NCBI RefSeq assembly: GCF_014518425.1
Contig: NZ_JACVCU010000001.1
Coordinates: forward strand, 744,001 to 808,000
Source: Terrabacter sp. MAHUQ-38
Lineage (GTDB): Bacteria; Actinomycetota; Actinomycetes; Actinomycetales; Dermatophilaceae
Direction of reading: 5' to 3'
Length of the DNA stretch: 64,000 nt
The notes beneath the pieces are model-generated. The model saw only the letters and a program-made list of their open reading frames with translations, was not told the origin of the DNA and made no database searches. Below are positions 1-64,000 of this stretch, one piece after another. A program made the position numbers and the translations under genes. Position 1 is the stretch's first letter. The number at the start of each line of letters is the position of its first letter.

Positions 1-354
1 TCCTCGCGCGCCTCGCGCACACCGTCGAGCCGCAGGCTCCCCGGCGTGCCGGGAGCGGCGGTCAGGGCGGTGTCACCGGCGGACCCCCACACGACGACTG
101 AGGGCCCGGCGGGAGCGCTCGTCCGGGGGAGCGGACCCGACGCCAGCGGACCCGTGGACATCCCATCCAGGCGGTAGCGGTACCCGTGGTACTCGACGAC
201 CTCCGGGATCTCGGCCAGGACGCGGGTGCCGTTCGCGGCCACTGCCCGTCGCGGGCCCAGCTCGTATGCCGACCCGGCCAGCCGCAGGGTATGCCGTACG
301 CAACAGCTGGGTGGAGCGCGTTGCCACGAAGTCGTCGAACGGCGCCTGTTCCAC
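1..354 (-). pseudogene. sigma-factor-like N-terminal remnant joined to an unknown open frame (partial)
   Basis: Reading leftward, a GTG at 354 with an AGGGGG-type ribosome site opens a frame encoding DDFVATRSTQLLRTAY, which resembles the N-terminus of SigE-group ECF sigma factors. The resemblance stops at about 290. A second minus frame stays open from about 300 to the left edge and encodes VVEYHGYRYRLDG followed by a Pro/Ser/Gly-rich stretch. Dropping one C near 288 would join the two frames, but the sigma helices expected next do not appear. I read this as a decayed or rearranged sigma gene. The second frame could instead be part of a real gene lying mostly outside the window. Confidence 0.3.
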
Positions 355-572
355 CGCGTGTCCCCCTGTCAGCGGCCCGGACAGGGCGTTGCCCGCCCCG
401 GCCCCGGTGCCCGTCGTCGTCGTCACAACCTGGTGGACCGGTTGGCCCCCACGAAAGGTTGCACGCCCACGGCCGGTACCTGAACCCATGCTGTGGGCCC
501 CGTGTGCCGGTCGTGTGAGAGCCGTCCGTCGTTTCGGCGTCGTGGCCCCGGTCAGGTCATACTGAGTGGCGG

Positions 573-591
573 CCCGAGACGGTTTCTCGGG
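573..591 (+). promoter_or_regulatory. hairpin in the leader just upstream of ponA
   Basis: A perfect 7-bp stem (CCCGAGA/TCTCGGG) with a 5-nt loop ends 12 bases before the first possible ponA start. It has no T-run, so it is more likely a leader structure than a terminator. No clear -35/-10 pair was found between 480 and 570; CATACT near 558 is a weak -10 candidate. Confidence 0.3.
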
Positions 592-603
592 TCTCATCGG
601 TGA

Positions 604-2823: not shown

Positions 2824-2830
2824 CGCCGCG

Positions 2831-4174
2831 GTGACCGAGCGGGTCGACGACCCGGTCGTACGGGCGGCCTCCGAGGTCATCGGTGGTCCCCGCGGACGGT
2901 ACGCAGCCGCACGCGAGCTCCCGTGGGTGCTCACGGCCGCCGTGCTGTCCGCCCTCACGGCGGTCACGGCCGGTCTCGGCATCCTGCTCCGTGCCCCCTG
3001 CCTGCGGACCGGCTTCACGGGCGACACCCAGTTCTGGAGCGCCTGCTACGCCGACCTGCCCACCGCCTACCGCGACGCGAACCTCAAGGCCGGCCTCGCG
3101 GCATACCTCCAGGGTGGCGACGGCGCGCCCGTCACCGGGCAGCCGCCGCTCACCGGGATCGTGCTGACGGCGATGGCGAGCCTGGGGCCCGACGACGGCT
3201 CGCTCAAGACGCGGGCCGCCTGGTACTTCGCGCTGTGGTCCGTGCTGCTGACGCTGCTGCTGCTCGCGACCGTGTGGCTCGTCGCGTCGTCGGCCGCCCG
3301 GCCGTTCTCCGCCGCGCACGTCGCGCTGTCGCCGGTCGCGGCGCTCGTCGGCTTCGTGTCGGCGGACCTGCTCGGCGTCATGCTGGCCAGCGCGGGCCTG
3401 TGGGCGTGGTCGCGCCGCAACCCGACGCTCGCCGGCGTGCTCCTCGGCCTCGCCATCGGGGCGCGCTCCTACCCCGTGCTCATCCTGCTCGCCATCGTCC
3501 TGCTGTGCGTGCGGTCCGGGCGGCTGCGCGAGATGGGCCGCACCGTCGGGTACGCGCTGCTGACCTTCGGGGCGCTGCTGTCGGCGATGTGGCTGCTCAA
3601 CAAGAACGCGGCAGCGTCGCCCTACCTGAACTGGGCGTCGGCCGGTGCCGGCTACGGCTCGCCGTGGCTGCTGCCGCAGCTCGCCGGGCACCCGCTGCCC
3701 GAGGGGGCCGTCACGGCGCTCGCGGTCGTCGGCTGGCTCGTCGCCCTCCTCGCGGGTGCGGTGCTCGCGCTCGCGTCGGCGCGGCGCCCGACCATCGCCG
3801 AGGTCTCGCTCGTCATGGTCGGCATCGTCCTCGTCACCGGCAAGTCGTTCACGGTGCAGAGCTCCCTGTGGCTGCTGCCGCTCGTCGCCTGGTGCGCCCT
3901 CCAGTGGCGCGACCACCTCGTCTGGGCGGGGGCCGAAGCGCTCAACTTCGTCGCCGTCTGGCTCACCATCGCGGCCACCAGCGTGCCCGACCGCGGCATG
4001 CCGGCCCCGTGGTACGCGTTCTTCTCGATGCTGCGCGTGGTCGCCGTGCTGTGGCTCGTCGCCGTCGTGTGGCTGCGCGCCCGTGAGAGGTGGAGCCGCT
4101 CGAGCGTCGAGCCCGACGACCTGGCCGGGCCGATGCGCGGCGCCGAGGACCACCTCATCGTCCGCTTCTCGTGA
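2831..4174 (+). CDS. GT87-type polyprenyl-phosphate-mannose-dependent glycosyltransferase, integral membrane
   Basis: About 447 residues with roughly ten hydrophobic helices. The first extracytoplasmic loop is rich in Asp and Tyr (GDTQFWSACYADLP), as in GT87/GT-C mannosyltransferases that use polyprenyl-phospho-sugar donors for cell-envelope glycans. It starts at GTG 2831, seven bases after the ponA stop, so the two are probably cotranscribed. A homologous membrane protein lies between ponA1 and rpsF in mycobacteria. The frame is open upstream inside ponA, but that part is antisense-like and Arg-rich and is excluded. The acceptor is unknown. Confidence 0.85.
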   Translation: MTERVDDPVVRAASEVIGGPRGRYAAARELPWVLTAAVLSALTAVTAGLGILLRAPCLRTGFTGDTQFWSACYADLPTAYRDANLKAGLAAYLQGGDGAPVTGQPPLTGIVLTAMASLGPDDGSLKTRAAWYFALWSVLLTLLLLATVWLVASSAARPFSAAHVALSPVAALVGFVSADLLGVMLASAGLWAWSRRNPTLAGVLLGLAIGARSYPVLILLAIVLLCVRSGRLREMGRTVGYALLTFGALLSAMWLLNKNAAASPYLNWASAGAGYGSPWLLPQLAGHPLPEGAVTALAVVGWLVALLAGAVLALASARRPTIAEVSLVMVGIVLVTGKSFTVQSSLWLLPLVAWCALQWRDHLVWAGAEALNFVAVWLTIAATSVPDRGMPAPWYAFFSMLRVVAVLWLVAVVWLRARERWSRSSVEPDDLAGPMRGAEDHLIVRFS

Positions 4175-4349
4175 GCGCACGCGTCGGCGTCTCCGATTTC
4201 TTCGTATGCCGGGTCGCCCGGTAGTCTTGCCCAGTTCGTCGTGTGCCCGGTTGCCTGTGGATTCGACCCGACCGATGTCGGTGAGGTCTGCGAGGCTGAA
4301 CCCGGCTGGACATCAGGCCGGGCCCCAGGCTCGCGACGGGACGAATGCA

Positions 4350-4746: not shown

Positions 4747-5361
4747 ATGGCTGGCGACACCGTCATCACGATCATCGGCAACCTGACCGCCGACCCCGAG
4801 CTGCGTTTCACGCCGTCGGGTGCTGCGGTCGCGAACTTCACCGTGGCCTCGACGCCGCGGCAGTTCGACCGCCAGAGCAATGAGTGGAAGGACGGCGAGA
4901 CGCTGTTCATGCGCTGCTCGGTGTGGCGTGACGCGGCGGAGAACGTCGCCGAGTCGTGCCAGCGGGGCATGCGCGTGATCGTGTCGGGCCGGCTCAAGTC
5001 TCGTTCCTACGAGACCAAGGAAGGCGAGAAGCGCACCGTCGTGGAGATGGACGTCGACGAGATCGGCCCGTCGCTGCGCAGCGCGACCGCAAAGGTCAAC
5101 AAGACCCAGCGCGGTGGCGGCGGTGGTGGCTTCGGCGGCGGCCAGGGCAACCAGGGCGGCGGCTGGAGCGGTGGCGGCGGCCAGGCCGAGGACCCGTGGG
5201 CGACCGGCGGCTCCGCTGGTGGTGGCCAGGCCGGTGGCGGCCAGGGTGGCTGGGGACAGCCCGCTGGAGGCCAGCCCGCTGCTGGTGGCCAGCCCGCGGC
5301 CGGTGGCCAGCAGGGCGGTGGCTGGGGCCAGGCCCCCAGCTACGACGAGCCCCCCTTCTGA
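4747..5361 (+). CDS. ssb: single-stranded DNA-binding protein
   Basis: Encodes 204 residues. The N-terminal OB fold (about 1-110) begins [22 protein letters not shown] long Gly/Gln-rich flexible linker with GGQ repeats follows, ending in the acidic tip YDEPPF used to recruit replication and repair partners. It coats single-stranded DNA at forks. GAAGGA lies about eight bases before the start. Its place between rpsF and rpsR is the universal arrangement. Confidence 0.97.
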
Positions 5362-5447
5362 TCGTCGAGATCGACTCCTGATCGAGCAGGTCAGCACCGT
5401 CGTCCGGTGAGTCTGCCGGACGGCATACCGAAGAAGTTCAGAACCAT

Positions 5448-7058: not shown

Positions 7059-8060
7059 ATGACGGGGATCGCTGACGCCGGCCGGCCCTTCCTCACTGTC
7101 GAGGGTCTGGCCGCTGGGCTCCCACGGCGGCTGCTGGACTCCGACCGCTTCGTCCGCCCGGCACGCGGCGTGCGAAGCATGTCACCGCCGCTGAGTCTGG
7201 TCGAACGCGCGCACGGGTTGACACCGGTGCTTCGGCGCGACGCCTCGTTCTCGCACGTAACGGCAGCACAGCTGCACGGGCTGCCTCTCTCGTATGCCGT
7301 CTCCGCCGACGAGCGTCTTCACTTCGTCCAACCCATCGACGCTCCACGTGTCAGGCGACCTGGGATCGTCTGCCACCGGGTGCTTCACGAACGGGCCGTG
7401 ATCGCGGTCGAGCATCTACGCGTCGTCGGGCTGGCCGACACCTGGGTCGACCTCGGCGAGCTCGTGGGCCGGGGCAGACCCGTTGGTCTCGATGACCTCA
7501 TTGTCGTCGGCGACGCCGTCGCGACGAGACTCGGGTCCGTGCGGCTGCGGCCGGTGGCGCTGGCCAAACGTGTGCGGCCGCGTGGCAAACGCACGCTGAT
7601 CGAAGCCTTGGCAGAGATCCGGGTGGGCTCCATGTCGCCGCAGGAGACCCTGACGCGCCTCATGCTCGTGCGTTGCGGTCTACCGGAGCCCAAGCTCAAC
7701 CAGGCCATCGTGAGCGCTGACGGCGTGTTCCTCGGAGTCGCGGACCTGAGCTGGGAGGAACAGAAGGTCGTCGGTGAGTACCAGGGCGAGGAGTTCCACT
7801 CGGGCGACGACCAGCGGGCGCGCGACGAAGTCCGACTCGCGGGCTTCAGGCGAGATGGCAGAGGCGTGGAAGAGATCTGGAAGTCTGACCTGGCCTCCAC
7901 ATCGGCGCGGCGGGCATGCGTCCTGCGCTTCGCCGAAGCCTTGAAGGTCGAGGAGTCGACCCTGGATCTCGCCAGCTGCGAACCTCGCTTCTTCTCACGC
8001 CACGCCATGGAGCTGGCGCTGCAGCGGGATGAGCGCCGTCAACGGCGTCGTGCGTGGTGA
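7059..8060 (+). CDS. DUF559/PD-(D/E)XK endonuclease-like protein with AbiEi-like N-terminus
   Basis: Encodes 333 residues. The N-terminal part resembles the winged-helix and recognition region of AbiEi-type proteins common in actinobacteria. The C-terminal part carries VADLSWEEQKVVGEYQGEEFHSG-like nuclease-fold spacing (Asp, then Glu-x-Gln and Glu-Tyr), as in DUF559/very-short-patch-like folds. Its biological role is not established. It starts nine bases after the broken DUF4262 gene and is flanked by the inverted repeat arrays, which suggests an inserted or mobile two-gene segment. No ribosome site is obvious at ATG 7059. Confidence 0.7.
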   Translation: MTGIADAGRPFLTVEGLAAGLPRRLLDSDRFVRPARGVRSMSPPLSLVERAHGLTPVLRRDASFSHVTAAQLHGLPLSYAVSADERLHFVQPIDAPRVRRPGIVCHRVLHERAVIAVEHLRVVGLADTWVDLGELVGRGRPVGLDDLIVVGDAVATRLGSVRLRPVALAKRVRPRGKRTLIEALAEIRVGSMSPQETLTRLMLVRCGLPEPKLNQAIVSADGVFLGVADLSWEEQKVVGEYQGEEFHSGDDQRARDEVRLAGFRRDGRGVEEIWKSDLASTSARRACVLRFAEALKVEESTLDLASCEPRFFSRHAMELALQRDERRQRRRAW

Positions 8061-8093: not shown

Positions 8094-8140
8094 CGGGCGT
8101 AGCCACCACTGCGCGCCAGGTGGTGACGGCATACGCCGGT

Positions 8141-9291: not shown

Positions 9292-10835
9292 GCCTGCGTG
9301 TCTCCTGCTGGTTCGGTCGGGGTGTCGGTGCCGCTCGTACCCAGTGGTGCCAGGGGTGCCGAGGGTGGAAGCAGCCGGCGCGTGGCGATGGTCCGGGCGA
9401 GGTCGAGAGCGCTCGCCTTGGGCGTGCGCACCTGGGTGTCGTAGTCGACTCGGACGATACCGAAGCGTTTGGCGTAGCCCCACGCCCACTCGAAGTTGTC
9501 GAGCAGCGACCAGTAGAAGTACCCGCGGACCGGCACCCCGGCGTCGAGGGCATCGAGGATGGCCCCGAGGTGCGCGCGCACGTATGCCGTCCGGTCGCGG
9601 TCCTCGACGAAGCCGTCCTCGTCGGCCACGTCGTCGAAGGCGGCACCGTTCTCCGTGACGTGCAGCGTGACCCCCGCCGGCCCGGTGTAGTCCTGGTGGA
9701 GCCGCACGAGCAGGCGGGTCAGACCCTCGGGCTGGATCTCCCAGTCCATCGACGTCACGGGCAGCCCGCGGGGGTGCCGGAACGACTCCTCGGCCGCCGG
9801 GAACGGCGAACGCGTGACGCGGCCTCCGTTGAGGTTGTCGGCCAGGACGCTGGCCGGCTTCGTGTGACCGATGGCCTCGCCGTTGTAGTAGTTGACGCCC
9901 AGGACGTCGATCGGCGTCGAGATGGCCTCGAGGTCTCCGTCCATGATCCGGTCCTCGAGTCCCAGGTGGCGCACGTCCTCGAGCAGGTCCGTCGGGTAGG
10001 CGCCTCGAAAGATCGGGTCGAGGAAGACCCGGTTCATCTGGGCGTCGACGCGCCGCGCGGCGTCCACGTCCCGGGGGTCCGAGGGGTCGACCGGGTCGGC
10101 CACCGTGAAGTTGAGCGTCAGGCCGAGCTCGAGCGACGAGTCTCGCGCCCGCAGCTCCTGCACAGCGCGCCCGTGGGCGAGCATGAGGTGGTGCGCGGCG
10201 GCGAGTCCGTCTGCGGGAGAGGTGCGCCCGGGCGCGTGCATGCCGGCGGTGTAGCCGAGGAACGCCGCGCAGAACGGCTCGTTGAGCGTCGTCCACGTGT
10301 TGACCCGGTCGCCGAGCCGGTCGTGCACGGCGCCGGCGTACTCGACGAACCGCTCGACGGTCTCGCGCGACGTCCACCCGCCCTTGTCCTCCAGGGCCTG
10401 CGGCAGGTCCCAGTGGTAGAGCGTCAGCCACGGCGCGATCCCGGCCTCGATGAGCGAGTCGACGAGCCGCTCGTAGAAGTCGAGACCCTTGGCGTTGACC
10501 GCCCCGCCGTCGGGGCAGACGCGTCCCCACGCCGTGGAGAAGCGGTACGACTGGACGCCGAGCGACTTCATCAGGGCGACGTCCGCGGCATACCGGTGGT
10601 AGTGCTCGCACGCGACGTCACCGGTGTCGCCGTCGACGACGGCGCCCGGCGTGTGCGAGAAGGTGTCCCAGATCGAGTCGGTGCGGCCGTCCTCGTGACG
10701 GGCCCCCTCGATCTGGTACGCGGCCGTGGCGACGCCGAGGACGAACTCGGCGGGCACCGGCCGCCCTTGCGGCGCAACGTTGTCGGCGCCAGGAGCGACG
10801 AGCGTGCTCTGGTGGTTCTGGGTCTGGGCGGTCAT
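9288..10835 (-). CDS. GH1 beta-glucosidase
   Basis: Encodes 515 residues, a full GH1 barrel with a longer Pro/Thr-rich C-terminal tail than usual. N-terminal FVLGVATAAYQIEGA, acid/base Glu186 in TLNEP, nucleophile Glu in VTENGAAF, and the terminal GYFYWSLLDNFEWAWGY signature are all present. There is no signal peptide, so it should hydrolyse imported beta-glucosides in the cytoplasm. Its ATG overlaps the stop of the upstream permease by four bases. The exact substrate (cellobiose, gentiobiose or others) cannot be read from sequence. Confidence 0.95.
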   Translation of the reverse strand: MTAQTQNHQSTLVAPGADNVAPQGRPVPAEFVLGVATAAYQIEGARHEDGRTDSIWDTFSHTPGAVVDGDTGDVACEHYHRYAADVALMKSLGVQSYRFSTAWGRVCPDGGAVNAKGLDFYERLVDSLIEAGIAPWLTLYHWDLPQALEDKGGWTSRETVERFVEYAGAVHDRLGDRVNTWTTLNEPFCAAFLGYTAGMHAPGRTSPADGLAAAHHLMLAHGRAVQELRARDSSLELGLTLNFTVADPVDPSDPRDVDAARRVDAQMNRVFLDPIFRGAYPTDLLEDVRHLGLEDRIMDGDLEAISTPIDVLGVNYYNGEAIGHTKPASVLADNLNGGRVTRSPFPAAEESFRHPRGLPVTSMDWEIQPEGLTRLLVRLHQDYTGPAGVTLHVTENGAAFDDVADEDGFVEDRDRTAYVRAHLGAILDALDAGVPVRGYFYWSLLDNFEWAWGYAKRFGIVRVDYDTQVRTPKASALDLARTIATRRLLPPSAPLAPLGTSGTDTPTEPAGDTQA

Positions 10836-11662
10836 CCCTTGACTGCTCCTTGCATGATGCCGGACACCAGCTGCTTGCCGGCGAAGACGAACAGGACGAT
10901 GAGGGGCAGTGCCATGAGGACGACCCCGTTGAGCACGAGCGAGTAGTCGACGAAGTACGCGGCCTGCAGCTGCTGCAGCGCGACCGGCAGCGTCGGGTTG
11001 CCGGGGTCGAGGATGATGAACGGCCAGAAGAAGTTGGTCCACGTCGCGATGAAGGTGAACAGGCCGAGCATCGCTGCGCCGGGGCGCGCGGCCGGCAGGG
11101 CGACCGACCAGAACGTCCGCAGCGTCGAGGCACCGTCGACACGCGAGGCCTCGATGAGCTCGTCGGGCAGAGCCTCCTGGAGGTACTGCGTCATCCAGAA
11201 GACGCCGAAGGCGCTCACCGCACTCGGGAGGATGACGGCCCAGACGCTGCCGATCCAGCCGAGCTTGCTCATGACGATGAAGAGCGGCACGATCCCGAGC
11301 TGCGTCGGCACGGCCATCGTCGCGATGACGAAGACGAGCAGCCCTGAGCGGCCACGGAAGCGCAGCTTGGCGAACGCGAACCCCGCCAGCGCGGAGAAGA
11401 GCACGACGAGCAGCGCGACGGTCGAGCTGACGAAGATGCTGTTGCCGAGCGCCTTCCAGAACGGGACCGTCGTGACGACCGTGGCGGCGTTCTCGAAGAA
11501 GTGCCCACCCGGCACGAACGAGTACGGGTCGCGCACGATGGCTGCCGAGTCCTTGCTGCCGATGACGAACGACCACCACAGCGGGAAGGCGGAGGCCAGC
11601 AGGACGACGAGGAGGAAGACGTATGCCGTGGGGCTGGCCTGGGTGCGTCGGGCGAGTCTCAT
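10832..11662 (-). CDS. ABC sugar transporter permease (MalG-like)
   Basis: Encodes 276 residues with six hydrophobic segments and the cytoplasmic EAA loop EASRVDGASTLRTFWSVALP. It is the second inner-membrane subunit of a CUT1-type importer. The start at ATG 11662 was chosen because it overlaps the upstream permease stop by four bases; the open extension to 11818 is antisense-like. No ATPase gene lies in the operon, so a shared MsiK-like ATPase elsewhere is inferred. Confidence 0.93.
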   Translation of the reverse strand: MRLARRTQASPTAYVFLLVVLLASAFPLWWSFVIGSKDSAAIVRDPYSFVPGGHFFENAATVVTTVPFWKALGNSIFVSSTVALLVVLFSALAGFAFAKLRFRGRSGLLVFVIATMAVPTQLGIVPLFIVMSKLGWIGSVWAVILPSAVSAFGVFWMTQYLQEALPDELIEASRVDGASTLRTFWSVALPAARPGAAMLGLFTFIATWTNFFWPFIILDPGNPTLPVALQQLQAAYFVDYSLVLNGVVLMALPLIVLFVFAGKQLVSGIMQGAVKG

Positions 11663-12690: not shown

Positions 12691-12794
12691 GGTCGGTTCC
12701 GCTCGTCGGGCGGGTGGCCCGGTGCCGGGTGACGGGTCACCGGGCCACCCGCGGTCGGCGCTCAGCGGCATACCGCTGGCTGGTGGAGGGGCGG

Positions 12795-17068: not shown

Positions 17069-17775
17069 CGCAACGGCCCGAGGTGCTTGAGCGCCTCGCG
17101 GCGGGAGAGGCCGGCGAGGTCGGGGTGCTCGGCCACGAAGGCGCGCACCCAGTCCGGGTCGTGGCGGGCATGGTCGCGCAGGGCCCAGCCGATCGCCTTG
17201 CGGATGAAGAAGTCGCGGTCGTCGACGTTGGGTTCGATGACGTCAGCCAGGAGCTGCTGGTCGAGCCGCTCGCGGGCGCCGACCTGGCCGATGATCGAGG
17301 CGCGCCGCACCCAGAGCGAGTCGCTGCCGGACCAGTCGCGTAGCCGCAGTCCCTCGACGGCCGGGGCGGCCAGCAGCGTGTCGCGCACGAGGTGGGTCGC
17401 GATCTCGTCGACGACGTCCCACCAGGCCCCCGCGCGGATCAGGCTCTCCCACAAGGGCATCGCCTCGCTGTCGACCCACGATCGATAGGCGCGGTGGCGC
17501 GCGAGGGCGATCGCGGCATACCACTGCTCGCGGTGGGTGGCCCCCTGCCAGAGGTCCTCGATGGTGGCGAGCCACTGTTCGCGGGACTCCATGGCGAGTC
17601 CCGGGTCGCGCAACAGTGGACGGAGCGTGGCGGCGAGCTGCGGCGAGGTGAGGCCGAAGTACGGCATGGCGGACTTCATGTAGCGCTGCTGCCCGCGGGC
17701 CCGCTCCGCATCGGCTCGCGCGAGGAGCGCGGCCCGCACCTCCGACGCGAGGTCGGGGTGCGGGTCGGAGGCCAT
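17065..17775 (-). CDS. AlkD-like DNA alkylation-repair glycosylase
   Basis: Encodes 236 residues made of HEAT-like helical repeats. AGAWWDVVDEIATHLV matches the AlkD active-site segment, where Trp and Asp face the alkylated base. AlkD excises 3-methyladenine and 7-alkylguanine without base flipping. ATG 17775 was preferred over the longer frame from 17802 because MASDPHPDLASEVRAAL fits the family N-terminus. Cotranscription with a drug exporter suggests a defence role, but this is inference. Confidence 0.88.
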   Translation of the reverse strand: MASDPHPDLASEVRAALLARADAERARGQQRYMKSAMPYFGLTSPQLAATLRPLLRDPGLAMESREQWLATIEDLWQGATHREQWYAAIALARHRAYRSWVDSEAMPLWESLIRAGAWWDVVDEIATHLVRDTLLAAPAVEGLRLRDWSGSDSLWVRRASIIGQVGARERLDQQLLADVIEPNVDDRDFFIRKAIGWALRDHARHDPDWVRAFVAEHPDLAGLSRREALKHLGPLR

Positions 17776-40955: not shown

Positions 40956-41039
40956 GCCGCCTGTTGCGATGGGCCACGGCGCGCCCGTGTGTGAAGGTCG
41001 CCATGTGACATCAGAGGTCCGCGACGGAGCCGGATTCTC

Positions 41040-41282: not shown

Positions 41283-41371
41283 CCTGGCCGCCAGGACGAA
41301 CGGTCGATGGACTCACCGTCGCGCGCACCGCGGCGGCTCACTGCCGGGCAGCCGCGGGATACGGTCCGGAC

Positions 41372-42562: not shown

Positions 42563-42661
42563 CCGCACCTGCCAGGGCGAGGACGTCACCCACGGCGACC
42601 GCAACGGATCATCATCGGGCCTGCGCAGGAGATTGGCGCACGAGCGACGTAGCGTCGCAGG

Positions 42662-43315: not shown

Positions 43316-43320
43316 AGGAC

Positions 43321-47497: not shown

Positions 47498-48397
47498 GTG
47501 CACACCGACGTCGCCATCATCGGGGGAGGACCCGCCGGCCTCCAGGCAGCCCTGACCCTCGGCCGCATCCACCGCGACGCCGTCCTCTTCGACGACGGCA
47601 CCTACCGCAACGCCACCGTGAGCCACATGCACAACGTCGTGGCGCACGACGGCACCCCGCCGGAGGAGTTCCGCGCGCACGCGCGCAAGCAGCTCGCGGC
47701 ATACGACACGGTCACGGTGCGGGAGGAGCGTGTCGACACGATCGAGGAGGTCGGCGGGATCTTCCACCTGCGCGTCGCGGACGGCTCGACCGTGACGGCC
47801 TATGCGCTCATCCTCGCCACGGGTGTGCGGGACGGGCTGCCGCCGGTGCCGGGGCTCGACGAGCTGTGGGGCGACTTCGTCGCGCACTGCCCGTTCTGCC
47901 ACGGCCACGAGCTCGGTGGACAGCGCGTCGGCATCCTCGGCGCGGCGGTGGCACCGCACCTGTCGGCGCTCCTCGGGCCGATCGCCTCGGAGCTCGTCGT
48001 CCTCGCGGACGGCGAGGACCTCCCCGACGAGTGGCACCCGGGTCCCGTGGTGCGCACCGAGCGGGTCGTCTCGGTCGAGCGGCACGGGGACGGCGTACGA
48101 GTGACGCTCGAGGGCGCGGACGGCGAGCAGGTGCACGAGCAGGTCGCAGGCCTCTTCGTGAAGCCTGCGCTGCGGCAGTCCACGGCGTTCGCGGAGCAGC
48201 TGGGCCTCGAGCTGAACCCCTCGGGTTGTGTGCGAGTCGACGAGTTCGGGCGGTCGAGCCGCGAGCGGGTGTTCTGCGCCGGTGACATGGCGCACCTCGC
48301 CGCGTACCCGATGCCGATGGCGTCGGTCGTCATGGCGTCGGCAGCCGGCCAGCTCGCGGCATCGGCGGCCACCATGGCGCTCCTGGCTCGTCCCTGA
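47498..48397 (+). CDS. thioredoxin-reductase-like FAD/NAD(P) oxidoreductase
   Basis: Encodes 299 residues. FAD motif VAIIGGGPAGLQAALTLGR and the dithiol HCPFCHG within the central domain resemble thioredoxin reductase. Final motif VFCAGDMAHLAAYPMPMASVVMASAAGQLAA also fits. It lacks a clear NADPH-binding GxGxxA in the second domain (VGILGAAVAPHLSALLG), so it may be an FAD-dependent disulfide oxidoreductase that uses another donor, as in ferredoxin-type or DUF-type homologues. AAGGAG is seven bases upstream of GTG 47498. Probably controlled by the divergent MerR. Confidence 0.88.
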   Translation: MHTDVAIIGGGPAGLQAALTLGRIHRDAVLFDDGTYRNATVSHMHNVVAHDGTPPEEFRAHARKQLAAYDTVTVREERVDTIEEVGGIFHLRVADGSTVTAYALILATGVRDGLPPVPGLDELWGDFVAHCPFCHGHELGGQRVGILGAAVAPHLSALLGPIASELVVLADGEDLPDEWHPGPVVRTERVVSVERHGDGVRVTLEGADGEQVHEQVAGLFVKPALRQSTAFAEQLGLELNPSGCVRVDEFGRSSRERVFCAGDMAHLAAYPMPMASVVMASAAGQLAASAATMALLARP

Positions 48398-48399: not shown

Positions 48400-48849
48400 T
48401 CAGCGGCGCCGAGGTCGGCGCGCCAGCAGCTGTCGGGCGCGGAGCGCGGCGAACACCCCGACCGCGCCGGTGACCGTGAGCAGCACCACCTGGTATGCCG
48501 TCAGCCAGCCCGTGAGGCGAGCGTTTCCCAGGCCTCCGTCGAAGAAGCCGGAGGCGATGCTCACGAAGCAGGCAAGCGCGAGCAGTCCAGCCGGGACCGC
48601 GCCCCACCGACGCCGCGTGGACACGGAGAGGTAGGTGAGGATCGCCTGTCCGGCCATCATCGGGACGGGTGCGGCGAGCAGGGCCGCGGCGCCCCAGGCC
48701 TCCGCCCACGTGTTGACACCGCTCGCGACGGCGAGGAGGCCGCCGCCGACGTCGACGCCGAGCAGGATGAGCTGCGCGGCGACGAGCTGCGTCGCGGGCC
48801 GCGACGGACGACTCTCGGTGCGCAGCGTCGGGTCGAGGGTGGTGGTCAT
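48400..48849 (-). CDS. integral membrane protein of unknown function
   Basis: Encodes 149 residues with four hydrophobic segments (TQLVAAQLILLGVDVGGGLLA, AAALLAAPVPMMAGQAILTYL, AVPAGLLALACFVSIASGFF, VVLLTVTGAVGVFAALRA) and a basic C-terminus. No family is recognised. It converges on the oxidoreductase, with the stop codons two bases apart. Confidence 0.75.
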   Translation of the reverse strand: MTTTLDPTLRTESRPSRPATQLVAAQLILLGVDVGGGLLAVASGVNTWAEAWGAAALLAAPVPMMAGQAILTYLSVSTRRRWGAVPAGLLALACFVSIASGFFDGGLGNARLTGWLTAYQVVLLTVTGAVGVFAALRARQLLARRPRRR

Positions 48850-52000: not shown

Positions 52001-52592
52001 TGGGGACGACGGCGAGGCGCAGCGCCTGGCCACCGTGGCGCTCGACCTCGCGTCGCAGGTCGCCCTGCCCGCCGAGCATCTCGCCAAGCCGGTCATCGCT
52101 CTCATCGCCGGGGTGTGGCGGGTGCCGATCCGCACCGACGTGTCGTTCCTCCGGCTCCTGGCCCTCGAGCCGATGGCGCGCGCGACGGCGCACGCCCTGC
52201 TCGGACGGGCCGGGCGAGCCGACCTCGTCGAGGAGGAGGTGCGTGAGCACCCGTACGTGCGTGTGCACGAGAACTGGCAGACCCTGCTCACCGAGTGCCT
52301 CGAGGCCGAGGCCACGAGCTACATCGGCCACGAGGCCCTGGCGCGCCAAGCCGTCGCGGAGCTCGAGCCCTGGTCGGGCCGCATCGCCCTGTCGGGTGTG
52401 TCGGTCGTCATCGGCCCGGTCGACGGCTACCTCGCCCTCGCCCAGGTCACGGTGGGGGACCTGTCGGCCGGGCTGCGCAGCGCCGCACGCGCCTTCGCCG
52501 ACGCGGAGAGGTGGGGCTTCACGGCATACGCCGAGTGGCTGACCCGCAACCTCGAGCGCCTCGGCGTGGACGCCGAGACGCTCGCCCCCTGA
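49023..52592 (+). CDS. large BTAD-STAND ATPase transcriptional regulator
   Basis: Encodes 1189 residues. An OmpR/SARP-type DNA-binding region (RKPRSIVAALAMRPGRPVPVDLLADLVW) and a bacterial transcriptional activation domain with TPRs (to about 280) are followed by a low-complexity linker and a STAND NTPase with Walker A GEPGIGKS (377-384) and Walker B VLVVLDDLHWADD. The remainder is a helical TPR-like sensor. There is no C-terminal LuxR helix-turn-helix. ATG 49023 was chosen; an open extension to 48918 is not protein-like. The target is unknown. It may act on neighbouring stress genes. Confidence 0.9.
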   Translation: MRVFVLGGSRVERAPGAPADADQEHLGEPAGLRERVDLGARKPRSIVAALAMRPGRPVPVDLLADLVWAGEPPPAAHGALHAYISGLRKALEPGRRGRSAPSVLGRSDHGYVLSVPRDAVDTHRFAVAVRDAERSLAPLGTQFSTGLAKDWPSRTEVVSTLDRLDEALALWVGEPYADLPDHPDVLAERASLERLRAAAEETRLLGLLALGEHVNVLATTEPLTTLHPTRERLHALHALALVRGGRQVEALDHLRDARAHLADELGLDPGPELRDAEQAVLRQEPGLLEWLRPHSSRSGARSPSQEPSPGRGTLGDATSTAGAHDGSAVADSAGAAGAGASTPRGEEPIGRTDERVGLEQLLSDALSGRTSSALVVGEPGIGKSWLVRYLTERARGLGFVVASGSCSQDDGAPPLWPWLSVLHALDEQAPGGGDDKPSGLAEMVPDTTDLGPGRSAFQTWQRVASAVLAASARVPVLVVLDDLHWADDATLRALRHLLEVAPETARLFVVGTRRSHPEPSGALAEVGEAFARRQGLRLDLVGLPGADAAELVHSVVAGVPAGTVNEWHTRTGGNPFFLLELARLGAAGSTGVHGGGVPATVREVVMRRVAQLPGATIAALGTAAVVGRSFRAETVAAADQDDPDETAESLEPAHAAGLLVDHEADGFAFAHALAREAVYLSIPQRRRARLHAQIAHALATNESLRAAFTPDELTAELARHWLASGPSHAEQAWRAAGAAATQARNAAAYRDAMRMRSEAVAAHRRVPGASQEERWDLLLELARDAAYAAHWPQVVDAALEALELGRSLGSPDRVARAAAAISHYCVWMPHSWLEVFEDAIDDLRWALRTLSETDSPTRALLLLSLAVELYYDQNAPAERAALVDAGLAVARRIGDPELLSWATRAAWIASWSPSRTEARLGIGAEGVAAARAAGDPVAEAVSLLTLATDHLELGQVDEWTRLAGQADRIARRERLPFVIYTYNWVELCLAAMRGDDGEAQRLATVALDLASQVALPAEHLAKPVIALIAGVWRVPIRTDVSFLRLLALEPMARATAHALLGRAGRADLVEEEVREHPYVRVHENWQTLLTECLEAEATSYIGHEALARQAVAELEPWSGRIALSGVSVVIGPVDGYLALAQVTVGDLSAGLRSAARAFADAERWGFTAYAEWLTRNLERLGVDAETLAP

Positions 52593-53319: not shown

Positions 53320-53486
53320 GGTGGTCTCCCTGTCGTGGTGGGGCCGCCCTGTGCGGCTGCACCCAGACTCCGGGCCGTGTCTTGTGCCGCTCTAGGGATC
53401 CGCTTGGGGCGGCAGCGCCGTGGGGCCACCGCGCAGCCGCGCGGCATACGATGCGGGCAGCCCCACACTCGAAGGAGCTGTCACGT

Positions 53487-53999
53487 ATGCCGTCCGCCCC
53501 CTCGGGTCCCGAGCGCACCGCGGCCCTCGCCCACCAGCTCGCCGCGGTCCATGACGGGCTGCGTGTCCGGGTGCGCGACATCCGAGAGGCACTGGACCAG
53601 CACGACGGCGACGCAGCGGGAGCCGACATCGTCGACGGCACAAGGCTGCTCGAGCACTGCCTCGGCTTCTGCCACGGCCTGCAGGCCCACCACACGGGCG
53701 AGGACGACGGTCTCTTCCTGGCGCTGCGCACCGAACGCCCCGACCTCGCGCCGATGCTCGACAAGCTCATCGAGGACCACCACCTGATCGCGGGGATCCT
53801 TGCACGCGTGCACGGCATCGCGGGCCAGGCGGGCTCCGGCTTGGACGGCCCGGATCGCATCCGTCTCCGCGGCGAGCTCGACGGGCTCATGGCGATCATG
53901 GACTCGCACTTCGCCTTCGAGGAGCGGAGCATCGGCGCGGCGCTGGACGGCCTCACCGACCGGTCATGGACGGCGACGGCCCTCGACGCAGGTCGCTGA
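53487..53999 (+). CDS. hemerythrin-domain protein
   Basis: Encodes 170 residues. HQLAAVHDGLRVRVRDI, FCHGLQAHHTGEDDGLFLAL, LIEDHHLIAGIL and MDSHFAFEERSIGAAL give the seven-ligand pattern of a hemerythrin-like bundle. AAGGAG is nine bases upstream. The start codon lies inside a CGGCATAC-family motif (reverse complement). The two hemerythrin genes face away from each other across a 167-bp shared promoter region. Confidence 0.9.
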   Translation: MPSAPSGPERTAALAHQLAAVHDGLRVRVRDIREALDQHDGDAAGADIVDGTRLLEHCLGFCHGLQAHHTGEDDGLFLALRTERPDLAPMLDKLIEDHHLIAGILARVHGIAGQAGSGLDGPDRIRLRGELDGLMAIMDSHFAFEERSIGAALDGLTDRSWTATALDAGR

Positions 54000-56034: not shown

Positions 56035-56999
56035 CGTGCTGCCTTTCGGGTGTCGTCGGCCGCCACGCGGCCCGGTTCGGTGAGGGCGAGGAAGACGTCG
56101 TCGAGGTCGGGGCTGGTCACCTCCAGGCCGGAGGCGGGGACGTCGTGCTCGGCGAGGCGGTCGAGCATGCGACGCAGCCCGGGTATGCCGTCCGCCGCAG
56201 GGAGCGAGTACGTCGACGTCTCGTCGTGGCGGACGCCGTCGGGGAAGGCGCGCGCCGCCGCGTCGAGCCCGGCGGCGTCTGGCAGGTGGAGGTGGATCGC
56301 GCCGCCGGGGATGCGTCGCTTGAGCTCGGCCGGTGTGCCTTGGGCGACGATGCGTCCCCCGTCGAGCACCGCGACCGTGTCAGCGAGTGCGTCGGCCTCC
56401 TCCAGGTACTGGGTCGTGAGCAGGATCGTCGCACCGTCGGCGACGAGGCTCCGCACGATGTCCCAGAGGTCGCGTCGGCTGCGTGGGTCGAGCCCGGTGG
56501 TCGGCTCGTCGAGGAACACGACGCTGGGTCGACCCATGAGGGTCATCGCGAGGTCGAGCTTGCGCCGCATCCCGCCCGACAGCGTGGCCGCGGGCTTGGC
56601 GGCATACGGCAGCAGGTCGAAGCGCTCGCTCAGCGCGGCGGCGCGCGCCTGTCCGGTGGCGCGGTCGAGGCGAAGCAGGTCGGCCATGAGCCGCAGGTTT
56701 TCGCGCACGGTGAGAAGGCCGTCGACGGCGGAGAACTGGCCGGTCACACCGATCGACGACCGCACCGCGAACGGGTCCGCGGCGACGTCGTGTCCGGCGA
56801 CGGCCGCCCGGCCGCCGTCGGCCCTCATGAGCGTGGACAGGATGTTGACGGTCGTCGTCTTGCCGGCGCCGTTGGGGCCGAGCAGGGCGAGCACGGAGCC
56901 GGCCGGCACCGCGAGGTCGATGCCGTCGAGGACGACCCGGTCGCCGAACGACTTGCGCAGGCCGGTGAGCTCGATCGCGGGAGGACGTGGGTGGGACAT
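56031..56999 (-). CDS. ABC exporter ATPase (DrrA-like)
   Basis: Encodes 322 residues. Walker A GPNGAGKTT, signature LSGGMRRKLDLAMTL, Walker B VVFLDEPTTGLDP and the H-loop region LLTTQYLEEADALAD are complete, with a DrrA-type C-terminal domain ending in SPDLDDVFLALT. AGGGAA precedes ATG 56999. The next gene upstream on the same strand encodes an EXLDI protein. Confidence 0.94.
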   Translation of the reverse strand: MSHPRPPAIELTGLRKSFGDRVVLDGIDLAVPAGSVLALLGPNGAGKTTTVNILSTLMRADGGRAAVAGHDVAADPFAVRSSIGVTGQFSAVDGLLTVRENLRLMADLLRLDRATGQARAAALSERFDLLPYAAKPAATLSGGMRRKLDLAMTLMGRPSVVFLDEPTTGLDPRSRRDLWDIVRSLVADGATILLTTQYLEEADALADTVAVLDGGRIVAQGTPAELKRRIPGGAIHLHLPDAAGLDAAARAFPDGVRHDETSTYSLPAADGIPGLRRMLDRLAEHDVPASGLEVTSPDLDDVFLALTEPGRVAADDTRKAAR

Positions 57000-57763: not shown

Positions 57764-58426
57764 TCACAGGGCGGCGCCGAGCGGCGTCGCCGTGACGACG
57801 AGGTTCTGGTCGTAGCTGCGCGTCGCCCGGTCGAAGGTGCCCGTGCACGTCAGCAGCACAAGACGGTGCCCGACCCGCTGGTCGAAGGCCGGGCTCGAGG
57901 CCGACAGCGCGTCCTTGAAGACGGCGTCGACCGCCACGACGCGGTATGCCGCTGCATGACCCTCGCCGTTCAGCGTGATCGTCGCCCCGGGCCGGATGTG
58001 CAGGAGCCGCTCGAAGTAGCCGAGACCCTGGCGGGGAGCGTCCACGTGCCCGGCGATGACCGTCGCGCCGAACGGGTCACCGGCATACGCGCTGCCGTCC
58101 CACCAACCCACCCGACGGATGTCGTCCGGCACCCGCAGCTCGCCGCCGACGGTCCGGGCCGGGACGACCACCGCGGTCGCGCCGCCGGGCAGCACGACCT
58201 GCTCCGGGCGGAACCGCACGCGTTCGCTCGCAGCGGTCCGCGCGGTTCGTGCCGGCTCTGCCGTCGTCGGATCCTCGCTCGACGAGGCCGGTGTCGGCAC
58301 GCCCGTCGTCCGGGAGGCCTGGCTGGGCGCCTCGCCGGCGCAGGCCGCCGTCACGAGTGCGAGCACAAGCGAGCCGCCGATCACGCCCAGCCACGAGCGC
58401 GGTCGGCGGGTGGGCGAGGTTCTCAC
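57764..58426 (-). CDS. class F sortase
   Basis: Encodes 220 residues with an N-terminal membrane anchor or lipobox-like segment (VLALVTAAC), a Ser/Thr linker and a sortase domain. ATVIAGHVD carries the catalytic His, LLTCTGTFD the Cys, and RSYDQNLVV follows with the Arg. Class F sortases of actinobacteria lack LPXTG-locus neighbours. The GTG start overlaps the DUF4397 gene stop by four bases, so the two are coupled. It should act extracytoplasmically. Confidence 0.9.
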   Translation of the reverse strand: MRTSPTRRPRSWLGVIGGSLVLALVTAACAGEAPSQASRTTGVPTPASSSEDPTTAEPARTARTAASERVRFRPEQVVLPGGATAVVVPARTVGGELRVPDDIRRVGWWDGSAYAGDPFGATVIAGHVDAPRQGLGYFERLLHIRPGATITLNGEGHAAAYRVVAVDAVFKDALSASSPAFDQRVGHRLVLLTCTGTFDRATRSYDQNLVVTATPLGAAL

Positions 58427-61141: not shown

Positions 61142-62251
61142 TCACGCGAGGGTGGCCGCCGCCTCGAGGACGGTCCAGGCCTGGAGCTGTGGCGACAGCT
61201 CGAGCGGCCGCGTCGGCGGGGTTCCGCCGGGCTCGGTCGGGAAGGCCGAGGGGTCCCGCCGACCGGCGACCGGAACGCTCTGACGACCTCGCCACAGTGC
61301 GTCCGCGGTGTCGAGGACCAGGCGGCGGGCCGTGCCGCGCGCGTCGTCGTCGAGGCGCCGGCTGGACGCAGCGAGGGCGAGGTAGCGCACGAGGATCCCG
61401 GTGAAGAGCCCGCCGTCGCCGCCGCCGTGGGTGCGAAGCACGCGGGCCCCGTCGAGCTCCACGGTCAGCCGCGCGTCGACCGCGGCGACGAGGGCCGCGG
61501 CGCGCTCGAGACTGCGGTCGTCGCCGAGCGTGACGAGCGCGCCGAGGACCGTCCCCTGGTTGTAGGACCAGACGTCGCCGACGAGGACCTCCGTGCCCTC
61601 CCGCAGCCGTATGCCGTCGAGCACGAGTCCGCTCTCCTCGGACCACAGGCGCGCATACACCCAGTCGACGAGCCGGCAGGCCTCGTCGGTCTCGCCGAGA
61701 CGGGCGAGGTGCAGGGCCGCCGGGCCCGTGGCAGGGCTGTTCTTGAAGTCGTGGTCGCGGCTCCAGAAGAGGCCGCCGCCGACGTCGTCCGTGTGTGCTG
61801 ACCGCAGCTGCTCGGTGAGGTGTCGGACGGCGGACCGGATGCGGCGGCGTCTCGGCGTGCGGCCGAGCTCGTCGTGCAGTGCGGCCAGGCGGCCGGACGC
61901 GAGGGCGAGCCACGCCATGTCGTCGTAGAAGCCGTTGACCCAGCGCGCCCCGTTGCGCAGCCGGATCGTCGCGAGCAACCGGTCGCCTTGGCGGGCATGG
62001 CGTTCCGCGCCCGCGAGCTCGCCCGTCCGGATCGCCCGGAGCCCGGCGTCGACGACCGCGTCGAGGTAGTGCGCCTGCCACCAGTAGTGCCACTCCCCGC
62101 GGAGCCAGCCGAACGGTCGGGAGCCCGCGGGCGCGGGGTGCACGACCCGCGCGAGGTGCGTCCACGGCATGGGGCCCAGGCGACCGGCGAAGAGCGCCGA
62201 CACGGACCGCTCGGCCTCGGCGGCCCTGTCGTCGAGCGGAGTCGTGGACAC
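61142..62251 (-). CDS. GH76 family glycoside hydrolase (alpha-mannanase-like), cytoplasmic
   Basis: Encodes 369 residues. WVNGFYDDMAWLALA holds the paired catalytic Asp residues of GH76, and GGGLFWSRDH and NSPATGPAALHLARL are further family motifs. There is no signal peptide, which is unusual for an enzyme acting on polymeric alpha-1,6-mannan, so it may process imported or lipid-linked mannosides. GTG start at 62251. Confidence 0.88.
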   Translation of the reverse strand: MSTTPLDDRAAEAERSVSALFAGRLGPMPWTHLARVVHPAPAGSRPFGWLRGEWHYWWQAHYLDAVVDAGLRAIRTGELAGAERHARQGDRLLATIRLRNGARWVNGFYDDMAWLALASGRLAALHDELGRTPRRRRIRSAVRHLTEQLRSAHTDDVGGGLFWSRDHDFKNSPATGPAALHLARLGETDEACRLVDWVYARLWSEESGLVLDGIRLREGTEVLVGDVWSYNQGTVLGALVTLGDDRSLERAAALVAAVDARLTVELDGARVLRTHGGGDGGLFTGILVRYLALAASSRRLDDDARGTARRLVLDTADALWRGRQSVPVAGRRDPSAFPTEPGGTPPTRPLELSPQLQAWTVLEAAATLA

Positions 62252-62368
62252 GCTCGGACGGTATCGCGGGGCCGGCGTCGGCGGCCCGTGTGGAAGGGTC
62301 GGAAGCGGTGTCGAGATCGCGGCCGCGGCTCCGACGTCTCGCTCGACCGATGAGGACGGAGGACCGAC

Positions 62369-62764
62369 GTGAAGTACCTGCTCATGATCTGGAGCAACCC
62401 GCAGACCTGGGGCCACCCGATCTTCCTGCGCACGACCGAGGCGGCGGCGATGACCGACGACGAGCGTGCCGGCATGCTGCGCGACTTCGAGGAGCTGCTC
62501 GCCGAGATCAGCGAGTCGGGAGAGCTCGTCACCGGCCAGGCGCTCGCCGACCCGATCACGGCCCGGAGCGTGCGCGTGCGTGATGGGGAGAGCGTCGTGA
62601 CGGACGGACCGTTCGTCGAGTCGAAGGAGCAGCTGGCCGGCTACTTCGTCGTCGACTGCGCCAGCCCGCACCGGGCCGAGGAGATCGCCGGCCGCTTCCC
62701 CGACGCGCGGTTCGCCGTGGTCGAGGTGCGCCCGCTCATGGACGGCTCGGAGCAGGATCTCTGA
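62369..62764 (+). CDS. YCII-related (DGPF domain) protein
   Basis: Encodes 131 residues. Begins MKYLLMIWSNPQTWG and contains TDGPFVESKEQLAGYFVVDCAS, the DGPF signature. Such genes are commonly paired with ECF42-type sigma factors, as here. GGACGGAGGA precedes the GTG. Confidence 0.92.
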   Translation: MKYLLMIWSNPQTWGHPIFLRTTEAAAMTDDERAGMLRDFEELLAEISESGELVTGQALADPITARSVRVRDGESVVTDGPFVESKEQLAGYFVVDCASPHRAEEIAGRFPDARFAVVEVRPLMDGSEQDL

Positions 62765-62778
62765 CAGGAGTGGCCGGC

Positions 62779-64000
62779 ATGAGCGACGCGATCGCGACCG
62801 ACGAGCTGTGGCGCAGCGTGACCCCACAGGTCATCGGTGCGCTCGTGCGCCGCTACCGCGACTTCGACCGGGCTGAGGAGGCCGCGCAGGAGGCACTTCT
62901 CGCGGCCGCAGTGCAGTGGCCCGAGCAGGGCGTGCCCGACGACCCGAAGGCCTGGCTCATCCGGGTCGCGTCGCGCCGGCTCATCGACGGACTGCGCAGC
63001 GACGAGGCGCGGGTCCGGCGCGAGCTCGCCGACGCCACCCAAGCGCCCGCCGACGACCTGGTCGCACCGCCGCCGGATGCCGTCGGGGCTCCCGGGCACG
63101 ACGACAGCCTGACGCTGCTCCTCCTCTGCTGCCACCCGTCGCTCACGCCGCCCGCGCGAATCGCCTTGACCCTCAGGGCCGTCGGCGGGCTCACGACAGC
63201 CCAGATCGCCCACGCCTTCCTCGTGCCCGAGGCGACGATGGCGCAGCGGATCAGTCGCGCGAAGCAGCGCATCCGGGAGTCCGGCGCGGAGTTCCGGATG
63301 CCACCGCCGGACGAGCTCCCTGCCCGGATGAGCGAGGTGCTCCACGTGCTCTACCTCGTCTTCACCGAGGGCCACACCGCGAGCAGCGGGCAGCGGCTGC
63401 ACCGGATCGACCTGACAGCAGAAGCCATCCGGCTCACACGGCAGGCCCACATCCTGCTGCCCGACGACGGCGAGGTGGCCGGGCTGCTCGCCCTCATGCT
63501 GCTCACCGAGGCGCGCCGTCGCGCGCGGACGAACGCGGCCGGAGAGCTCGTGCCGCTCGCCGAGCAGGACCGCTCGCTGTGGGACACGGCATACATCCGG
63601 GAGGGCGTCGCCCTCGTGACCGATGCTCTGACGCGGACGCGCCTCGGGCCCTACCAGGTCCAGGCGGCGATCGCCGCCGTGCACGATGAGGCTCCCACGG
63701 CGGCGGACACGGACTGGGAGCAGGTGCTCACCCTCTACGGGGTGCTCGAGCGGCTCGCGCCCGGCCCGGTCGTGTCGCTCAACCGCGCCGTCGCGCTCGC
63801 GATGGTCGAGGGCCCGGCGGCCGGGCTGGCGGTGCTCGAGGATCTTGCCCACGACAAGCGTCTCGCCGGGCACCACCGCCTCCACGCCGTGCGCGCGCAC
63901 CTGCTCGAGCTGGCGGGCGACGCCGAATCCGCAAGGGAGAGCTACCTGCTCGCGTCCCGGCTGACCACGAGCATCCCCGAGCAGGACCATCTTCGACGCA
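62779..64000 (+). CDS. ECF42-type RNA polymerase sigma factor with C-terminal TPR extension (3' end cut by window)
   Basis: At least 407 residues. Region 2 is DPKAWLIRVASRRLIDGLRSDEARVRREL and region 4 GGLTTAQIAHAFLVPEATMAQRISRAKQRIRE. The long C-terminal helical domain (VFTEGHTASSG, SLNRAVALAMVEGP) is the DUF6596/TPR extension typical of ECF42. Starts at ATG 62779 behind CAGGAG, 14 bases after the YCII stop. Nearly complete at the right edge (SIPEQDHL). Confidence 0.92.
   Translation, partial: MSDAIATDELWRSVTPQVIGALVRRYRDFDRAEEAAQEALLAAAVQWPEQGVPDDPKAWLIRVASRRLIDGLRSDEARVRRELADATQAPADDLVAPPPDAVGAPGHDDSLTLLLLCCHPSLTPPARIALTLRAVGGLTTAQIAHAFLVPEATMAQRISRAKQRIRESGAEFRMPPPDELPARMSEVLHVLYLVFTEGHTASSGQRLHRIDLTAEAIRLTRQAHILLPDDGEVAGLLALMLLTEARRRARTNAAGELVPLAEQDRSLWDTAYIREGVALVTDALTRTRLGPYQVQAAIAAVHDEAPTAADTDWEQVLTLYGVLERLAPGPVVSLNRAVALAMVEGPAAGLAVLEDLAHDKRLAGHHRLHAVRAHLLELAGDAESARESYLLASRLTTSIPEQDHLRR

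Follow-up and report, generated by a model that had tools for sequence, protein, structure and literature searches.

Sequence-specific self-recognition in transformation has been described for two proteobacterial families (PMC5031613). The DNA uptake sequence (DUS) of the Neisseriaceae forms inverted pairs associated with terminators, is located in the core genome, and occurs in eight dialects, with one genome carrying two of them (PMC3630211). For the uptake signal sequence (USS) of the Pasteurellaceae, the receptor has so far only been predicted (PMC12616744). Here we analyze the 8-letter word CGGCATAC in a 64,000-nucleotide stretch of Terrabacter sp. MAHUQ-38 (positions 744,001 to 808,000 of the 1.5-Mb contig NZ_JACVCU010000001.1; referred to as the window), in the whole genome that contains it, which among named bacteria is closest to Terrabacter and a Terracoccus, and in related bacteria (genomes and sampled loci carry G and L codes, respectively, and G000 is the genome of the window). 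By analogy with the two known systems, we consider it probable that CGGCATAC is a DNA uptake sequence like DUS and USS that evolved independently.

A word search of the window found exactly the 34 copies on both strands that a first-pass annotation, made by eye, had counted, against a mean of 0.80 in 100 dinucleotide shuffles (standard deviation, 1.11; maximum, 6). The annotation had expected two to three copies, which is if anything high, given that 1.1 copies are expected in the window under an order-2 Markov model. The nine coordinates that it named were right to 0 to 9 bases (7289, 16335, 29286, 44939, 56190, and 61608 are shifted to 7292, 16336, 29295, 44938, 56183, and 61609), and it had correctly seen only two GCATAC hits outside the context of CGGCATAC (2 of 36 occurrences in the window, at 41697 and 61653). 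The whole genome (5.16 Mb) has 1018 copies on one strand and 1006 on the other, or 2,024 altogether, and the reversed word, which serves as a rough control, is present 142 and 167 times (309). In 464 kb of this genome, 203 copies were observed, whereas Markov models of orders 2 and 3 expected 8.8 and 12.3, respectively, and CGGCATAC was the top over-represented 8-mer at order 3. At order 4 the expectation was 50.8, and the overlapping word TATGCCGT ranked just above CGGCATAC; higher-order models expect more copies because they already contain most of the word. When motif copies were masked, 824 kb of sampled G000 stretches gave 367 observed copies versus 6.6 expected at order 3 (L006 and L007 were dropped from this sample because they overlap the contiguous G000 stretch, and L001 and L002 were unused). 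The over-representation of CGGCATAC is real and strong, and genome-wide counts far above the Markov expectation leave the claim of the annotation standing. The word differs from its reverse complement, GTATGCCG, upon direct comparison and is therefore non-palindromic. In the 464 kb, C directly precedes GGCATAC in 203 of 214 occurrences. The base just 5' of the core is A in 47% and T in 3% of the 367 copies, and in four Intrasporangium loci it is G in 88% of 33 copies.

That CGGCATAC is maintained at the DNA level is close to certain. Genes were called with a home-made codon model (702 genes in the 824 kb), and the resulting frame counts are approximate: 271 of the 367 copies lie in genes, 89 between genes, and 7 on edges. 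All six frame settings are occupied, namely, TAT-GCC-G in antisense (141 copies), GCA-TAC (77), GGC-ATA-C (32), ATG-CCG (15), and two others (3 each), with two settings holding 218 of the 271 in-gene copies. Because six settings are used and 89 of 367 copies lie between genes, one codon pair fails to explain the word. Codon choice responds to the motif context: TAT encodes tyrosine in 141 of 201 cases in xxG-TAY-GCC-G, where it completes the motif, versus 206 of 4055 elsewhere (4 to 16% in each of seven non-completing contexts). ATA is used for isoleucine in 32 of 151 CGGC-ATH-C contexts versus 0 of 558 in three GGC contexts from which one or both of the flanking C residues (upstream and downstream) are missing, and GCA is used for alanine in 77 of 155 CG-GCN-TAC contexts versus 4 to 8% in three others. 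In consequence, the motif contains 32 of the 63 ATA codons and 141 of the 349 TAT codons present in the sampled G000 genes. A second Terrabacter set showed the same codon response, as did a Knoellia set (ATA in 10 of 21 motif contexts versus 2 of 1503). No response was found in motif-low Janibacter and Phycicoccus sets, where numbers are small (ATA, 0 of 16 and 0 of 37; TAT, 3 of 20 and 0 of 19). The annotation had noted that the motif forces rare codons in different frames (GCA-TAC, TAT, and ATA), which the codon-context counts bear out, and had concluded that it is conserved as DNA, not as protein, a view strongly supported by the frame counts, the codon contexts, the codons of relatives, and the site conservation described below. 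Codon-pair preference was rejected by the codon-context test together with the intergenic copies, and as a sole cause acting in one frame it does not undo that conclusion.

Individual sites are kept well beyond words of the same composition. Two comparisons at 85% genome identity found CGGCATAC intact at 83 of 118 aligned sites and at 77 of 106, respectively (83 of 129 when the first comparison is read in the other direction), versus 40 to 41% of same-composition 8-mers; between sisters of 93.5% identity, 156 of 179 sites were intact versus 69%. In a conserved stretch of ∼10 kb, with about 8 distinct sites that are seen repeatedly in the comparisons, the site was kept in 49 of 49 comparisons of seven Terrabacter-clade loci with Humibacillus xanthopallidus (86 to 87% identity) and in 0 of 47 comparisons of Terrabacter-clade loci with the motif-free Intrasporangium flavum (84 to 87% identity). 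Where Terrabacter Root181 or Terrabacter tumescens was aligned with Humibacillus DSM 29435, whose genome favors the word CGGCATCC, 2 of 4 aligned sites read CGGCATCC. Copies are denser in shared DNA: in one 464-kb stretch of one genome, with unaligned DNA standing in for acquired DNA, shared DNA holds 127 copies in 249.5 kb (5.1 per 10 kb), and long unaligned runs inside the syntenic span hold 33 copies in 122.6 kb (2.7 per 10 kb; P = 0.0007 versus shared), a figure that excludes the initial long run (43.6 kb with 26 copies), which lies beyond the covered part of the relatives. Including this run brings the value to 3.55 per 10 kb (59 copies in 166.2 kb); taken together, the unaligned DNA of the span has 3.57 per 10 kb. 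A 22-kb stretch of lower G+C content with restriction-like genes has 2 copies.

Both orientations are used about equally, with strand counts of 103/114, 102/113, and 100/105 in contiguous stretches of 464, 400, and 400 kb from three Terrabacter genomes. The annotation had suggested a strand skew relative to replication as a check; no polarity was found in these three genomes, in which the best two-arm split, determined by trying every split point instead of locating the origin, comprised 55.8%, 54.0%, and 54.1% of sites and was no better than in shuffles. Intergenic DNA is enriched (89 of 367 copies in 13.6% non-coding DNA; P = 5e-8), and the density falls from 12.5 per 10 kb between convergent genes to 9.3 between tandem and 5.9 between divergent genes (P = 0.02 for convergent versus divergent). 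Pairs less than 100 bp apart number 18 versus 9.8 expected. Among pairs closer than 60 bp with both copies intergenic, 35 of 39 in total are inverted: 6 of 8 in G000, all 16 in the sister genomes G002 and G008 (counted jointly; they have many sites in common), all 3 in eight Knoellia loci, and 10 of the 12 found in seven Tetrasphaera-like loci. Such close pairs are a minority of all CGGCATAC sites. Three inverted pairs of G000 have stems of 15 to 18 bp and loops of 2 to 6 bases, are located close to gene ends, and resemble terminators, which would be their putative function.

Across the family (168 genomes from 49 genera), the forward-strand count of CGGCATAC is bimodal, with at least 400 copies in 91 genomes, fewer than 50 in 59, and values in between in 18. 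In a scan of the class (296 genomes), the 288 genomes outside the family had at most 196 copies per strand, a maximum reached in G215 (7.5 Mb; reversed control, 84/92); richness in CGGCATAC is confined to one family. Motif-rich named loci come from Terrabacter, H. xanthopallidus, Intrasporangium oryzae, Intrasporangium calvum, Pedococcus, Knoellia, Phycicoccus elongatus Lp2, Metallococcus, Flexivirga, and Leekyejoonella. Named loci with 0 to 1 copies come from Janibacter except HTCC2649, the Phycicoccus jejuensis group, Mobilicoccus, Dermacoccus, and I. flavum.

Several low or middling genomes have a neighboring word in place of CGGCATAC, and for these words the spread among the other counted genomes serves as a control in addition to the reversed word. 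CGGCATCC reaches 2222/2258 copies per strand in G066, 1972/1977 in G179, and 1850/1966 in G052 (identical to G188, as judged from identical match places), and 1091/1104 in G067, where it stands beside CGGCATAC as one of two dialects; the other 68 of 72 counted genomes have 111 to 674 per strand. CGGCATTC is present at 1574/1561 in G183 and at 13 to 143 in the other 11 counted genomes; by the same measure, G183 is G020, which also holds 509/516 copies of CGGCATAC and again combines two dialects. CGGCGTAC is found at 726 to 1309 per strand in G039 (1181/1185), G040, G051, G107, G111, and G186 and at 66 to 576 in the other nine distinct counted genomes (16 handles, of which G040 and G187 are one genome). 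On a single-gene tree of 69 anchor proteins, made by a quick method from 69 of 80 named loci (most of the 11 left out are on short contigs), the CGGCATAC label has to change 12 times, and well-supported branches force no fewer than 9 of these changes; judged by this tree, gains, losses, or dialect changes happened repeatedly. One-base variants of CGGCATAC are mostly at or above expectation in the 464 kb and the 824 kb of G000. The largest surpluses in the masked 824 kb were those of CGGCATCC (199 versus 82), CGGCGTAC (145 versus 64), and CGGCATTC (42 versus 12.5), and CCGCATAC was also above expectation (18 versus 4). The top three have, at positions 5 and 7, the letters that set the dialects apart, a pattern that a single reader tolerating changes at certain positions would be expected to produce.

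Possible further words were seen in samples of 40 to 100 kb: CGTAGACC in G045, CCGCATCG in G106, CGGCGTCC in G018, and, moderately, CGGCATCC in G009, of which only CGGCATCC was counted genome-wide. No clear dialect was found within 26 kb of I. flavum. Second words stand beside CGGCATAC in Flexivirga caeni (L096), Metallococcus carri (L060), and G065 (L136), namely, CGCCATAC (14 and 11 copies) and CGTCATAC (8 copies), which suggests mixed or changing dialects. In Humibacillus DSM 29435 (L034, L235, and L243), TGGCCACT/AGTGGCCA is in excess (17 versus 1.3) besides the dialect CGGCATCC. Janibacter (L081, L088, and L095) and some motif-poor genomes (G079, G091, G114, and G116; L119, L211 to L214, L120, L124, and L125) have an excess of GAAGGGGG and CGAAGGGG (35 versus 4.4 and 44 versus 7.9, respectively, in 100 kb of G079), perhaps another repeated signal.

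With over-representation, both orientations without polarity, intergenic excess with inverted pairs, dialects, and higher density in shared DNA, CGGCATAC matches uptake sequences in most testable features, and for this reason we prefer uptake-driven biased gene conversion as its cause. DUS, too, is a short, non-palindromic, over-represented word with hundreds to thousands of genic and intergenic copies, intergenic inverted pairs, dialects that differ by one or few letters, a genome with two dialects, and a location in core DNA (PMC3630211, PMC5031613). It belongs to another phylum with another envelope, however, and has 10 to 12 letters with a CTG core, whereas CGGCATAC has an 8-letter core without CTG and is known from sequence alone. 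DUS is read by the minor pilin ComP, and no ComP is known in the genomes with CGGCATAC. The reverse complement, GTATGCCG(TC) or GTATGCCGTC, has ATGCCGTC in common with the neisserial DUS ATGCCGTCTGAA (PMC5031613), an overlap that is probably due to chance. USS is similarly an over-represented self-tag with dialects (PMC5031613) but differs in sequence and host group, and uptake bias was measured for USS, while our evidence on CGGCATAC comes from genome sequences only.

Under the proposed mechanism, CGGCATAC would be a short non-palindromic self-tag that is read by a surface or cell wall DNA receptor during natural transformation, and the machine would likely consist of a Flp/Tad-type pilus together with ComEA and ComEC, as in Micrococcus luteus. 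Cells would preferentially import fragments with the tag and exchange them for the homologous stretch. Biased gene conversion (molecular drive) would thereby spread tagged alleles until the tag populated both strands of the chromosome at about 0.4 to 1.2 copies per kb. In genes it would settle where synonymous or near-neutral changes allow, and intergenic copies would arise as well. Drift of the receptor specificity, mostly for tag positions 5 and 7, would be followed by the genome-wide tag and yield a new dialect.

Cyanobacteria offer a different precedent, in which HIP1, an over-represented octamer, is replaced in some of the genomes with low HIP1 counts by alternate HIPs, each with a matching methyltransferase (PMC4390886). 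A repeat of this type, created and kept by a site-specific methyltransferase and biased mismatch repair and with no role in uptake, would have a parallel to its replacement words in the CGGCATCC, CGGCATTC, and CGGCGTAC dialects. HIPs are palindromic, however, which CGGCATAC is not, are tied to methyltransferases, and are usually denser (1000 to 2000 per million bases versus about 400 to 1200 for CGGCATAC; PMC4390886). In addition, the one-base variants of CGGCATAC are not consumed, 14 losses affected several motif positions (1, 2, 5, 6, 7, and 8), and inverted intergenic pairing is not predicted by such a process, so that we regard a HIP-like origin as rather unlikely. The genome-wide, roughly random spacing, the two orientations, and the good site conservation would also suit a binding site for a chromosome-organizing or nucleoid protein, with each copy under selection. 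Whole-genome dialect changes should be hard with ∼2,000 individually selected sites and easier under drive, though, and the lower density in strain-specific DNA and the loss of every compared site in I. flavum speak against such a protein; we hold this explanation to be improbable.

The annotation had named a chromosome-organizing or recombination signal, a methylation target, and the deamination product of a methylated GTACGCCG as possible origins. The first keeps some small chance in general, but its Chi-like, polarized form is unsupported. A recognition signal for an enzyme of the RecBCD/AddAB/AdnAB type would explain a non-palindromic over-represented 8-mer that is denser in shared DNA, as Chi, an octamer, is more frequent in core genomes (PMC8022716). 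Chi is polarized on the leading strand in Escherichia coli (PMC8022716), whereas the best splits for CGGCATAC (54.0 to 55.8%) do no better than permutation, making this very unlikely. A mutational hotspot, with methylated GTACGCCG deaminated to GTATGCCG or with very-short-patch-like repair, finds some backing in the ancestry of new copies: of eleven gains, five were resolved, and CGGCGTAC was the precursor in three of these and thus the commonest resolved source (the other two arose from CGGCCTAC and CGGCATCC, and six gains were ambiguous). In three motif-rich genomes, moreover, CGGCGTAC is near its reversed control (70/66 versus 80/87 in G176, 110/117 versus 110/95 in G101, and 88/89 versus 69/76 in G108). 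In G000, on the other hand, CGGCGTAC is not depleted but in excess (77 versus 45.6 at order 2 in the 464 kb; 145 versus 63.6 in the masked 824 kb), other resolved gains began from other letters, and the position-7 dialects CGGCATCC and CGGCATTC cannot arise by deamination. The excess of CGGCGTAC in G000 and the gains from other words led us to reject deamination as the main cause, a role to which we give almost no credence; it may be one route among several. The interpretation given in the annotation is thus upheld for conservation at the DNA level and not supported for deamination as the main cause or for a Chi-like polarized signal, and a DNA uptake tag, which was absent from its hypotheses, fits best.

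Of a transformation machinery, G000 contains a comEA-comEC pair, a Tad locus with TadE- and TadG-like genes, and another adjacent T2SSF pair on contig C12. In M. luteus, another actinobacterium, natural transformation depends on Flp pili (PMC4322843, PMC6370729), and comEA and comEC are present (PMC6370729). The TadE-, TadF-, and TadG-like genes are only candidates for the receptor.

Several observations weigh against an uptake tag. The transformation machinery is encoded in G000 but equally in motif-low genomes: ComEC was found in 71 of 72 genomes, including motif-low ones, with the fragmented but motif-rich G178 as the sole miss, and PF00482 (pilus platform) in 71 of 72, with the motif-low G014 as the sole miss. 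The motif-free I. flavum retains both. ComEA and ComEC of G000 score above the Pfam cutoffs but below the stricter NCBIfam full-length cutoffs, and the tadA gene of the Tad locus beside prfB seems to be cut by a serine recombinase gene. No receptor was identified; the comparison of pilus loci covered ten loci, too few for a test. A dialect can be named for only some of the 59 genomes with fewer than 50 forward-strand copies. Even spacing was sought and not found (coefficient of variation, 1.02, within the random range of 0.87 to 1.13). Among all pairs of G000 less than 100 bp apart, wherever located, 8 of 21 are direct, a commoner arrangement than in the intergenic set. Some single 8-mers of the same composition are kept equally well or better (0.8 to 1.0; n ≥ 15), and two H. 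xanthopallidus loci of 94.7% identity have 9 of 11 sites in common. To our knowledge, competence has not been tested in Terrabacter.

The presence or absence of ComEC or PF00482 was accordingly dropped as the driver of the motif, since it does not discriminate between motif-rich and motif-poor genomes. Since motif-poor relatives, too, have ComEC and pilus genes, we infer the link to uptake instead of demonstrating it, and if CGGCATAC is an uptake tag, it is therefore specificity, not the machine, that would have been lost or changed there. We likewise infer that the reader is a DNA uptake receptor, which protein this would be, and that the host is competent.

In the window, word searches placed forward-strand copies of CGGCATAC at 3099 to 3106, 5421 to 5428, 8127 to 8134, 10586 to 10593, 12766 to 12773, 17514 to 17521, 20301 to 20308, 20442 to 20449, 23497 to 23504, 27198 to 27205, 29295 to 29302, 39324 to 39331, 44938 to 44945, 47697 to 47704, 52522 to 52529, 53442 to 53449, 56600 to 56607, 58081 to 58088, and 63587 to 63594. 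Reverse-strand copies are located at 264 to 271, 289 to 296 (forming a direct pair with the copy at 264), 4204 to 4211, 7292 to 7299, 9582 to 9589, 11621 to 11628, 16336 to 16343 (inside a MatE-family gene at 15710 to 17068), 25375 to 25382, 26947 to 26954, 46051 to 46058, 48493 to 48500, 53485 to 53492 (forming an inverted pair with the copy at 53442), 56183 to 56190, 57944 to 57951, and 61609 to 61616. The copy at 39324 is the sole one in the stretch from 33135 to 43935, which is unaligned to two congeners and includes a FAD aromatic hydroxylase gene and a LanC-like gene. Overlapping 10-mers, e.g., ACGGGAGTGA and CTCCCGTACG, occur 5 to 6 times each in the window and L003. Upstream of the unaligned stretch, a DnaB helicase gene (30497 to 33133, forward strand) matches LAGLIDADG/homing endonuclease models in its middle and therefore probably contains an intein.

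Two other regions of G000 contain genes of mobile or defensive appearance. A serine recombinase gene with Resolvase and Recombinase domains adjoins the apparent 3' part of tadA (G000:C13, L227:3377-4801 on the reverse strand and 4840-5181 on the forward strand), and an integrated element seems to cut tadA beside prfB. The motif-poor region G000:C1:921288-945158 (L162 and L163) encodes an SNF2-type helicase, a type ISP specificity protein, and a PLD-helicase, with a C5 methylase at its edge; 4 of 8 scanned proteins had no match, and the gene set resembles a DISARM-type defense island.

We found no prior report of an actinobacterial uptake sequence system in the literature searched (most subscription papers and all preprints are outside its coverage) and, for the word CGGCATAC itself, no title about such a genomic repeat. 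On balance, the odds lean slightly toward CGGCATAC and its dialects, at least four in number, being a third family of uptake sequences of independent origin and, according to that literature, the first among Gram-positive bacteria. These sequences would be spread through the bacterial family of Terrabacter, Knoellia, Intrasporangium, and Flexivirga, would be read by a receptor of a Flp/Tad-ComEA-ComEC machine, and would explain one half of the AUA codons and two fifths of all UAU codons in the genes sampled from a genome with 71% G+C. A clear actinobacterial case would show that self-recognition evolved repeatedly, on a different envelope and with a different pilus type. Such a large family, with its numerous natural cases of gain, loss, and dialect switching, would allow tests of why uptake sequences exist, as mate choice or as a by-product of drive. 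If the proposal is true, it would also offer an easy means of transforming these bacteria, since the word to use is predicted for many species.

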